Assembly (NCBI RefSeq): GCF_003944835.1
Contig: NZ_RWIV01000001.1
Span: 1,961,501 to 2,025,500 of the forward strand
Source of the DNA: Bacillus sp. HMF5848
Lineage (GTDB): Bacteria > Bacillota > Bacilli > Bacillales > HMF5848
Direction: 5' to 3'
DNA length: 64,000 bases
The stretch's first letter is position 1. Every line of letters starts with the position of its first letter. The notes under the pieces are model-generated. The model did no database searches. It was given only the letters and a program-made list of their open reading frames with translations, and was not told where the DNA came from. Positions 17,925 through 21,637 of the stretch are shown here, in pieces. Position numbers and translations under genes: made by a program.

Positions 17925-18797
17925 ATGGTTAACTTTGGACGCATAGTTACCGCAATGGTAACACCGCTAGATATTAAGGGGAATGTTGATTTTCAAAAGA
18001 CAACAACATTGGTAAATTATTTAATCAACAATGGCACGGATTCACTTGTAGTGGCAGGAACTACTGGAGAGTCGCCTACCCTATCAACTGAAGAAAAAGT
18101 AGCATTATTTAAACATGTAGTAAAAGTGGTAGATCATCGTGTTCCCGTTATTGCTGGAACAGGGAGCAATAACACGTATGCCTCGATTGAATTAACAAAC
18201 AAAGCAGCCGAAGCAGGTGTGGACGCAACAATGCTTGTCGCACCATATTACAACAAGCCAAGTCAAGAGGGTATGTATCAACATTTTAAAGCAATTGCGA
18301 ATAGTACAACGTTACCTGTTATGCTATACAATGTTCCAGGTCGAACAGCCTCTTCACTTGCGCCTGAAACAATTATTCGTTTGGCAGAAATTGAAAATGT
18401 TGTATGTGTAAAAGAAGCAAGTGGTAATTTAAATGCTATGACAGAGATTATAGCTAACACAAGTGATGATTTTGAACTATACAGTGGTGATGATGGACTG
18501 ACTTTGCCTGTTCTTTCTATTGGGGGAAAAGGGATTGTTTCAGTGGCATCACATATTATTGGAAACGATATGCAAGAAATGATTGCGTCTTTTACTAATG
18601 GTGATATTCTATCAGCGGCGAAGGCACATCAGCGTTTATTACCAGTAATGGAGGCATTATTTGCGGCCCCAAGCCCAGCTCCTGTTAAAACGGCATTACA
18701 ATTAAAAGGATTCGATGTCGGTTCAGTACGTTTACCAATTTTACCATTAACAGAAAAAGAACGAATAACGTTACAAACTGTTTTGAATACGCTATAA
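17925..18797 (+). CDS. dapA: 4-hydroxy-tetrahydrodipicolinate synthase
   Basis: DapA condenses pyruvate with aspartate semialdehyde, supplying lysine, peptidoglycan diaminopimelate and spore dipicolinate. The 290 residues match the family: GTTGESPTLS, YNKPSQEGMYQHF, VPGRTA, and the Schiff-base lysine in VKEASG at residue 163. GAGGAG precedes two adjacent ATGs; the second (17925) has the better spacing and gives the usual length. The gene ends at a terminator, after which a gene-free kilobase follows. Confidence 0.96.
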   Translation: MVNFGRIVTAMVTPLDIKGNVDFQKTTTLVNYLINNGTDSLVVAGTTGESPTLSTEEKVALFKHVVKVVDHRVPVIAGTGSNNTYASIELTNKAAEAGVDATMLVAPYYNKPSQEGMYQHFKAIANSTTLPVMLYNVPGRTASSLAPETIIRLAEIENVVCVKEASGNLNAMTEIIANTSDDFELYSGDDGLTLPVLSIGGKGIVSVASHIIGNDMQEMIASFTNGDILSAAKAHQRLLPVMEALFAAPSPAPVKTALQLKGFDVGSVRLPILPLTEKERITLQTVLNTL

Positions 18798-18824: not shown

Positions 18825-19232
18825 TAACAATTATTTTAAAGCTACTAGGTCCAACATGAAATACTTACAAAATCCCTCCAATTTATTGATTTATAAACCC
18901 CATGGATTAGAGATTCTTGGATCTCTGAGTGAGACATGAGTTTTGACACCTAAATTGTTATTACTCAGATCACACCCTTCCGAATTTCCGAGCGAGGAAA
19001 GCTCAACTCCTTTATGTGTGAGTGTATCAGTATGAGATACGGTAAAGGTTTAGTATCGTTGGTTAATGCATAAGGTCCCAATAGACTAGAATGTATTAAG
19101 CTCTTTTTTTTATAGACCTAAAAAATTCTGAGATGTGATGATTTTCAAGAATTTATGGAAAACAGGGGGGACATTTTTAAAACGGCTACTTTATACTTTG
19201 CTTAATAATAAATTATCAAAAAAGTCTCGGTC

Positions 19233-19262
19233 TTGTACGTAAATTCTTCCATCATGTATAAT
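19233..19262 (+). promoter_or_regulatory. Sigma-A-like promoter inside the gene-free gap
   Basis: TTGTAC (19233-19238), 18-base spacer, TATAAT (19257-19262). A transcript would begin near 19269, some 700 bases before rnjB, and run through the hairpins below. Confidence 0.45.
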
Positions 19263-19367
19263 AGTTATAGTGACGTAGAGCGGGTTACTTATTACCATAA
19301 TGAAAAGCGAGTGAAAGGGTCGTATTCGTTTTTCTAAACGTTAAAGAAAATATAAGGTTTTTAACCT

Positions 19368-19600
19368 AGATGAGTGTCTAGCTCCAGCACATAGCTAGTT
19401 TTTCATCTATGAATAACCTTCCTTGAATATCTTGTGAAAAGCATGATATAAAATATGATGCTTTTCACAGCTCGAGATCTTAAGCCGTTCCCCCACGGGA
19501 GGGAAGGCCCTTCCTGAGGAGGTACGTCTTAAGCTAGTTGGGGCTGAGCAAGGTGCTCGCGCAGATGAGGTCTAAGCTTCGCGCGCACAACGGCTAGTGG
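19368..19600. repeat. Folded, partly GC-rich repeat-like block
   Basis: Nested hairpin AGATGA..CTAGCT..AGCTAG..TCATCT (19368-19408); 12-bp hairpin TGTGAAAAGCAT / ATGCTTTTCACA (19433-19469); then a block much richer in GC than its surroundings, with paired CTTAAG sites, GGAAG-GCC-CTTCC, CTAGTTG with CAA..CTAG, and GTGCTCGCGC with GCGCGCAC. It opens with GTGTCTAGCTCCAGCAC, resembling a repeat I recall from many Bacillaceae intergenic regions. It is either a degenerate repeat copy or a structured RNA. Confidence 0.55.
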
Positions 19601-19966
19601 TGCTTCACGTTTATGGGGTTTTTATTCGAAATGTATGATAATTTTTCGTCAAATCGGAATGTAATACTCCTTGATATGGTGGGGTTATTTAGCTTTTACT
19701 TGTAAAAATGGTAACTGAACATTTCATTGGTACAAAAAATATTCATGCAAAAACATGGAATTAAATTTAGGCTCGAATACAGTAACATACGTCTTTCTAG
19801 AGCTTTCCAATTATACATAGAAACATAATACAATAACGTCCTTAACTTTGTGTATACACTTAAGTGTGATTACTTGTGATGTTTGGCAACAATGACCCAT
19901 GACATTGAAATTAATCGTTAAAGAATACTTACTAAATAATATATATTGGCTATAGGAGGAAATTGT

Positions 19967-21637
19967 TTGAACACAATACAGACAGATAAAATCAGATTGA
20001 TTGCTCTAGGCGGGGTAGGGGAGATAGGGAAAAATATGTATGTTGTCGAGGTGAGCGATGACATATTTGTTGTAGATGCCGGTCTTATGTTTCCTGAAGA
20101 TGAAATGTATGGTGTTGACAATGTTTTACCCGATATTACATATTTAATAGAAAATAAAGAACGTGTTAAGGCGGTATTTCTAACTCATGGACATGAGGAC
20201 CATATTGGTGCATTATGGTATATTTTAAAAAATATCTCAACAAAAGTGTATGGAACAAAATTAACTCTTGCACTCGTTCGAGAAAAGTTAAAAGAGCATG
20301 GTAAAGCTTACACCGCAGATGTTTATGAAGTAAAAGAAAAAACTAAGCTAACATTTTCAAATGTTGATGTTACGTTCTTTCGTACAAATCACAGTATCCC
20401 AGATTCAGTAGGGATCTGCTTTCATACATCACAAGGAATCATTGTTCATACGGGTGATTTTAAATTCGATCAAACCCCAACAGGTGTGTATAATGCTGAT
20501 ATCGGCAAAATGGCCCAAATAGGTAATAAGAAGGTTCTTTGCTTATTGTCTGACAGTACTAATGCAGAAAAACCAGGTTTAACACCATCCGAAGAAGTAG
20601 TTCGCCAAGAAATTTCAAATGTTATTTATAACGCAGAGGGACGTGTTATAGTAGCAACCTTTGCCTCTAATGTAAATCGCATTCAACAAGTATTTGATGC
20701 TGCTAAAGACAATAATCGGAAAGTTGTGGTTGTTGGAAGTAGTCTAAAAACAGTGACGGAAACAGCCTTAAAGCTAGGCTATTTAAAGATACATGAAGAA
20801 ATACTAATTTCTGCTACTAATTTAAATAAATATAATGATGAACAGCTTGTGTTTCTAGCTACTGGTAATCATGGTGAACCAATAGCTGCTCTTGAGAAAA
20901 TGGCTAGACAAGCTCATAGTCAAGTTAATATAAAGCCAGGAGACACTGTAATGCTAGCCGCAACACCTATGCCAGGTAACGAATTAACAGTTTCAAAAAC
21001 TATTGATTTACTATATAGAGCAGGTGCGGATGTGATTTATAGACGACGACCAATTCATGTGTCTGGACATGGCTCACAAGAAGAGTTGAAATTGATGCTA
21101 AATCTTATGAAGCCAAAATACTTTATCCCTGTTCATGGGGAGTATAAAATGCAGTTTGCTCATGCTAAGCTGGCAAAGGCTGTAGGCGTAAAATCTGATA
21201 ATATTTTTATTGTCGAAAAAGGCGATATTATTGAATTTGAAAATGGAGAAGGTAAAAAGCTATCGAAAAAAGTACCCGTTGGTAATGTAATGATAGATGG
21301 TTTAGGGATTGGTGATGTGGGCAATATTGTGCTAAGAGACCGCCGGCTTTTATCGCAAGACGGCATATTAATTGTTGTCGTTACTCTGAATAAAGAAACG
21401 AAACAAGTAAGGTCAGGTCCTGAAATTATTACAAGAGGATTTGTGTATGTTCGGGAGTCTGAAGATTTAATCGATGAAGCATCTGCTATAGTAAAAAAGA
21501 CATTAGAAAATGCTACAAAGGATTTTGTTGTTGAGTGGTCGTCTCTTAAACTGAACATACGCGATGAATTAAATCAATATTTATATGAAAAAACAAAAAG
21601 ACGTCCCATGATTCTACCGATAATAATGGAAGCTTAA
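19967..21637 (+). CDS. rnjB: Ribonuclease J2 (RNase J family)
   Basis: A metallo-beta-lactamase/beta-CASP ribonuclease; RNase J1 and J2 form a complex that acts in mRNA decay and RNA maturation. About 556 residues. Position after dapA and before tepA identifies it as the rnjB (ymfA) ortholog. The zinc motif reads HGHEDHIGA, with FFRTNHSIPDS, VHTGDFKFD and HVSGHGSQEE also intact; the B. subtilis RNase J2 I recall has a degenerate first motif, so this copy may be more active. It starts at TTG, 6 bases after ATAGGAGGA; an upstream TTG at 19946 precedes that site. A terminator follows. Confidence 0.92.
   Translation: MNTIQTDKIRLIALGGVGEIGKNMYVVEVSDDIFVVDAGLMFPEDEMYGVDNVLPDITYLIENKERVKAVFLTHGHEDHIGALWYILKNISTKVYGTKLTLALVREKLKEHGKAYTADVYEVKEKTKLTFSNVDVTFFRTNHSIPDSVGICFHTSQGIIVHTGDFKFDQTPTGVYNADIGKMAQIGNKKVLCLLSDSTNAEKPGLTPSEEVVRQEISNVIYNAEGRVIVATFASNVNRIQQVFDAAKDNNRKVVVVGSSLKTVTETALKLGYLKIHEEILISATNLNKYNDEQLVFLATGNHGEPIAALEKMARQAHSQVNIKPGDTVMLAATPMPGNELTVSKTIDLLYRAGADVIYRRRPIHVSGHGSQEELKLMLNLMKPKYFIPVHGEYKMQFAHAKLAKAVGVKSDNIFIVEKGDIIEFENGEGKKLSKKVPVGNVMIDGLGIGDVGNIVLRDRRLLSQDGILIVVVTLNKETKQVRSGPEIITRGFVYVRESEDLIDEASAIVKKTLENATKDFVVEWSSLKLNIRDELNQYLYEKTKRRPMILPIIMEA

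Follow-up and report, generated by a model that had tools for sequence, protein, structure and literature searches.

The dapA–rnjB intergenic region

The region analyzed here lies in a window of 64 kb (the whole stretch of DNA under analysis, 64,000 nt) of Bacillus sp. HMF5848, between two genes assigned by their Pfam domains, DHDPS for dapA and RNase J for rnjB. The dapA gene stops at 18797, and rnjB starts at 19967 with a TTG codon immediately preceded by the Shine-Dalgarno sequence AGGAGG. A preliminary description of this DNA had noted a gene-free gap with hairpins and a GC-rich block, and the open reading frame listing indeed holds no frame of at least 50 amino acids wholly within the gap. 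Two more RNase J paralogues, with 52% and 48% identity, are found in the same genome (G000:C1:1749869 and 2663362), making three in all. Read 5' to 3', the gap opens with the dapA terminator and ~400 nt of unique sequence. A promoter and a terminator-like hairpin come next, then the GC-rich folded block, and finally another ~400 nt of unique sequence. The features are as follows:

19233..19262, + strand: conserved rnjB promoter, with TTGTAC (19233-19238), an 18-nt spacer, and TATAAT (19257-19262)
19268..19284, + strand: initial-transcribed motif and presumed transcription start; AAGTGAcTTtgAgCGGg in relatives, TAGTGACGTAGAGCGGG here
19302..19334, + strand: 12-bp terminator-like hairpin whose 3' arm is U-rich; adjoins the repeat on its 5' side, inside the presumed rnjB leader
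19338..19562, + strand: repeat copy as a whole, a worn copy of a dispersed family with its 3' end missing
19338..19374, + strand: 5' prefix of the repeat; family consensus ACGTTAAAGAAAGTATAAGTTTTTTAACCTAGATTAG, from an alignment of 33 copies
19375..19396, + strand: left arm of the palindromic core, TGTCTAGCTCCAGCACATAGCT
19397..19470, + strand: 74-nt secondary insert, palindrome GTGAAAAGCATGATATAAAATATGATGCTTTTCAC, corresponding to the second hairpin noted previously
19471..19562, + strand: right arm of the core and apical arm (the GC-rich block), 88% identical to the family consensus; the terminal CGCTTTTCTTA is missing
19563..19966, + strand: remaining part of the presumed leader of rnjB, without a second copy in the genome
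19967..21637, + strand: rnjB (RNase J2), with Pfam RNase_J_b_CASP and RNase_J_C and a TTG start

The GC content is 53 to 59% across 19450-19600 versus ~30% around it, and both hairpins pointed out previously are present in the predicted fold, at about 19368-19410 and at 19433-19469. Folding with randomized controls, which had been proposed as a check, places 19355-19615 far beyond its shuffles (−95.8 kcal/mol versus −73.2 ± 4.7 kcal/mol; z = −4.85), and 19338-19575 folded as DNA gives a z of −4.94. For the part of the gap 5' of the block (18830-19335), the fold does not surpass that of shuffles (z = −1.0). Neither 18825-19335 nor 19560-19960 has a second copy elsewhere in the genome.

Conserved promoter of rnjB

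The sequence TTGTAC-18-TATAAT lies exactly at 19233-19262, where a sigma-A-like site had been reported, although a generic sigma-70 scan scores the site too weakly to list it because the −35 box is poor. In the upstream regions of rnjB in relatives, 19 of 22 loci carry TTGNNN (nearly always TTGTNN), an 18-nt spacer, and TATAAT or TATACT, followed in nearly all cases, at a fixed distance, by AAGTGA..CGG or a close variant of it, with the CGG 17 to 20 nt past the −10 box in most relatives. A weight matrix built from these 19 loci, which belong to other families, gives 30.4 at window position 19233 (training sequences, 22 to 50, with one outlier at 7.0); on both strands of the 64-kb window the runner-up reaches 7.2, and 200 shuffles of the region give at most 9.6. 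Judged by sequence, 19233-19262 is a genuine, conserved, and ancient promoter of rnjB. The sequence transcribed first, AAGTGAcTTtgAgCGGg, which follows the −10 box directly, is conserved over many families of the order (loci L249 to L270) and is possibly a determinant of the 5' end of the rnjB mRNA.

In 14 of the 19 relatives, the −10 box stands 46 to 85 nt from the start of the protein match; other relatives have distances of 132, 163, 183, and 419 nt, and the low-scoring outlier of the matrix (L270) has its −10 box 46 nt from the gene. The locus with 419 nt between promoter and gene (L265) is without a repeat unit. In the window, this distance is 705 nt. Since the conserved promoter stands upstream of the repeat and this far from the gene, a long leader carrying the repeat is to be expected, and the rnjB mRNA should begin near 19269 with a leader of ~700 nt.

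A palindromic repeat family of the order

Comparison of 19360-19620 with the whole genome revealed 16 other long copies with 75 to 87% identity and many partial ones, and 19338-19395 gives a BLAST match at 91%. The aligned copies have in common a prefix of ~37 nt and the core, and 16 copies, including that of the window, contain the 74-nt insert. A covariance model trained on 18 units drawn from several families, whose E values are rough, finds 54 copies in this genome; its match to the window copy (C1:1980960-1981056, 36.8 bits) is among the weaker ones. The degraded repeat offered as one option in the preliminary description thus fits the window copy, which has many relatives in its genome and lacks its 3' end. 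The same description held that many near-identical copies and no transcript would reduce the block to a simple dispersed repeat: the copies are many, but the long ones are not near-identical, and transcription is expected from the conserved promoter.

A covariance search, suggested earlier for related Bacillaceae, was extended to the order and the phylum. Within the order, the model matches 187 of 249 sampled genomes, which represent 81 of the 106 genera, and in a phylum sample it matches 3 of the 4 members of the order and none of the 295 genomes outside it. Many genomes have 20 to 70 copies, often in head-to-tail arrays with a period of ~125 nt. Arrays often start with a half unit at TATGCTTGTCG, close to the inward end of the conserved 3' arm (left flanks of L180 to L191, and L237), and these leading half units sometimes stand directly after a terminator. 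No match to the repeat was found in plasmid and phage collections; an Rfam search at a relaxed threshold, with the window and units of other genera, returned nothing relevant; and the literature searched gave no hit for the motif TCTAGCTCCAGCGCCTAG and no paper recognized as describing the family.

Insertion sites and mobility

The mobility of the family was assessed in genomes other than that of the window, by comparing the flanks of eight loci of one genome with six congeners. Locus B is filled in G396 and G451 and empty, with intact flanks, in G365, G026, G503, and G477. Its junction reads TTATAA, the element, and then GTTATCAA, and TTATAA/TTATCAA is a possible target-site duplication at this one locus only. 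Locus A carries 3.5, 1, or 0.5 units, all close behind one terminator. Filled and empty sites among congeners show, at the level of compared sequences, that the repeat family is mobile. The repeat is short, noncoding, multicopy, and intergenic, with presence/absence polymorphism at orthologous sites (locus B), all of which are traits by which MITEs are recognized.

Among prefix-bearing copies of the window genome, 24 of 46 lie just 3' of a canonical terminator, 23 of them at 4 to 10 nt from the stem, against 1.3% in shuffles. By a simple open reading frame caller, the 54 copies are almost all intergenic; 49 adjoin the 3' end of a gene and 5 lie in divergent gaps. Group IIC introns also insert just 3' of intrinsic-terminator hairpins; they are ribozymes of several hundred nucleotides or more, usually with a reverse transcriptase, whereas the present repeat is a single interrupted hairpin without a protein.

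Copies are also strongly oriented in this genome: 49 of 53 run with the replication fork (24 on the + strand before and 25 on the − strand after the skew switch), with 4 against the fork and 1 ambiguous. Genes run with the fork in ~70% of cases; this figure is approximate, since the terminus was assumed at 2.35 Mb for it, whereas the skew switch points to 2.03 to 2.2 Mb. The bias is weaker in G537 (23 of 29 among the copies listed) and about absent in G008.

Search for a mobilizing enzyme

How does such a repeat, without a protein of its own, reach new sites? One candidate mechanism is that of REP/REPIN-type elements, for whose movement a Y1 (RAYT) transposase acts on single-stranded DNA at the replication fork, in the manner of IS200/IS605. 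The palindromic core with its asymmetric conserved ends, the clustering of copies head-to-tail, the excess of copies that run with the fork over that of genes, and the presence of three Y1/RAYT genes in this genome (L063, L064, and L065, at G000:C1:3989690, 1181362, and 4087119) all speak for it. However, RAYT genes occur in 36 of 40 genomes irrespective of the repeat, and none of 33 RAYT loci has a repeat unit within 1.5 kb. The fork bias was also considered as proof of single-strand transposition and set aside; being weaker or absent in other genomes, it is a hint and not a general property. Other short palindromes (GGGGACGGTTCTC.. / GAGAACCGTCCCC; GTGCCTGGCACC / GTGCCAGGCACC) flank the RAYT genes of this genome and appear to be the REP partners of these genes. 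A RAYT-driven origin is therefore doubtful, as the transposase is unlinked and its presence does not track that of the repeat; among the Y1/RAYT transposases examined, no mobilizing enzyme was found.

Pairing within the core

The core is a long interrupted palindrome of ~121 nt with the ends TGTCTAGC..GCGCTTTTC. Units of different families, folded independently, share a common plan: P1 (AGC/GCT) and P2 (AGCGCCT/AGGCGCT) are followed inward by a 5-nt one-sided bulge, P3 (AGCCCC/GGGGCT), CATAAG/CTTATG, and a variable apical arm. The arms pair along their length, while TGTCTAG and GCTTTTC, at the very ends, are conserved without being inverted copies of each other.

Among 109 distinct units, 93.4% of cells are paired and double-sided change occurs in 28 of 29 pairs. 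Double-changed cells number 754; shuffles give 190, and sliding the partners gives no more than 207. Such order-wide conservation and massive covariation, together with a conserved, terminator-like CGCTTTTCTT tail at the 3' end and the preference for gene 3' ends, would fit a structured noncoding RNA, either a small RNA or an RNA 3'-end element, kept in many copies for its fold. The composition of the pairs argues otherwise: 2,802 are Watson-Crick, 63 G-U, and 68 A-C (binomial P = 7e-23 against an expected 85% G-U), the G-U to A-C counts being 30 to 37 in the outer helices and 33 to 31 in the inner ones, whereas a small tRNA control has 7 G-U and no A-C. Since G-U does not exceed A-C, and double changes occur with one-side-changed intermediates rare among the core pairs, pairing appears to be kept on DNA and not as folded RNA, perhaps through recognition of two strands or arm-to-arm correction. 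Copies in this genome also lie behind terminators, where transcription should be low, and no Rfam family matches. With this DNA-level signature, an autonomous noncoding RNA, one of the options raised at the outset, is improbable.

The 74-nt insert

The insert occurs in about half of the copies, at an identical position of the repeat in all 16 copies that have it, and was not found in the examined loci of other genomes. Mean pairwise identity over these 16 copies is 92.8% for the insert, 77% for the core, and 63% for the prefix, and the insert is more identical than the core in 120 of 120 pairs. Core identity is 0.776 within insert-bearing copies, 0.748 within insert-free copies, and 0.761 between them; because these values are so close, the insert-bearing copies form no separate lineage, and a subfamily explanation was rejected. 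Insert and core divergence are not significantly correlated (Spearman −0.34, P = 0.20). Either the insert entered copies that had already diverged, always at one position, or selection maintains it; given how strongly it is conserved, selection may act on at least some of these copies.

The repeat in the rnjB leader

The repeat starts 69 nt past the presumed rnjB start (~19269), directly behind the weak terminator-like hairpin, a place that agrees with the sites of its sister copies. None of the rnjB leaders of 22 other loci examined contains a unit. One of these loci (L249) has a unit nearby, at 1211-1324, which lies 5' of the rnjB promoter, behind the dapA terminator. The preliminary description had envisaged a long regulatory leader, with RNase J under the control of its own RNA structure. 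The position holds, with a promoter 5' of the repeat and far from the gene, but the regulation is not supported, because the family adjoins many unrelated genes, was not found in the other leaders examined, and shows no excess of G-U over A-C. It is highly improbable that the block is a cis-regulatory RNA in which the hairpin at 19302-19334 or the repeat attenuates transcription or binds RNase J for autoregulation: the conserved promoter 5' of the block, the hairpin ~35 nt past the start, and the strong leader fold agree with it, but the same sequence stands beside dozens of unrelated genes, most promoter-bearing relatives have the short distance to the gene given above, the pairing is not RNA-like, and the hairpin is no better than shuffles (19269-19340, which covers it, −15.5 kcal/mol; z = −1.05, not significant). 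The repeat is most likely a passenger in the rnjB leader rather than a conserved regulator.

Origin of the folded block and relation to known systems

Taken together, the folded block is very probably a decayed copy of an order-wide, nonautonomous mobile DNA repeat family that landed in the rnjB leader. Its core is the ~121-nt interrupted palindrome; in this genome the ~37-nt prefix precedes it, and about half of the copies also contain the 74-nt insert. As the filled and empty sites show, copies appear at new places, which in this genome mostly lie a short distance (a few nucleotides) 3' of a terminator hairpin, and head-to-tail arrays grow and shrink. On the DNA, the paired arms could act as hairpins or as a cruciform recognized by a trans-acting enzyme, or they could be kept complementary through arm-to-arm correction. 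In the window, one copy lies 3' of the conserved promoter and 5' of rnjB, and the mRNA from ~19269 would carry it in a leader of ~700 nt.

Several described repeats resemble this family in part. bcr1 of the Bacillus cereus group is described as a short, noncoding, interspersed repeat, MITE-like with traits of mobile elements (cited in PMC3733652, PMC3446304, PMC2267715). Both it and the present repeat are short, foldable, and intergenic in Bacillus relatives; however, in a comparison by description, bcr1 is reportedly confined to the B. cereus group (by a title cited in PMC2267715), whereas the present family spans the order and has a 121-nt core and tandem arrays. REP, BIME, and REPIN elements with their RAYTs are likewise palindromic, extragenic, clustered, nonautonomous, and near gene ends, but REPs are 20 to 40 nt and BIMEs alternate in orientation (PMC2817692, PMC3116915), while the present units are ~121 nt and head-to-tail, with no RAYT linkage found. 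The Bhal-1 (74 nt, 36 copies) and Bhal-2 (76 nt, 50 copies) families of Bacillus halodurans (PMC2267715) are also intergenic stem-loop families of a Bacillus; in a comparison by description, they are shorter than the present repeat.

A bolder reading, which we regard as tentative and would not favor at present, is that the family represents an undescribed, ancient, order-wide class of mobile hairpins that target the 3' side of terminators, maintain complementarity at the DNA level, and have themselves been colonized by the insert, as a parasite of a parasite or a spread protein-binding site. In this reading, the 74-nt insert would be younger than the repeat and confined to one fixed position, in this genome.

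Implications

For rnjB, the ~700-nt leader offers a natural lineage to compare with relatives whose promoter lies 46 to 85 nt from the gene. If the repeat targets terminator hairpins, this would be a safe-site strategy. The covariation of its core is strong enough for the usual noncoding RNA screens, but the G-U bias of RNA is missing, and the family is thus a useful test case for telling RNA-level from DNA-level pairing. The repeat occurs in three quarters of the sampled genomes of the order without an Rfam entry or a description in the literature searched. Because it is so widespread and without such an entry or description, many intergenic "structured RNA" calls in these bacteria could be this DNA element.
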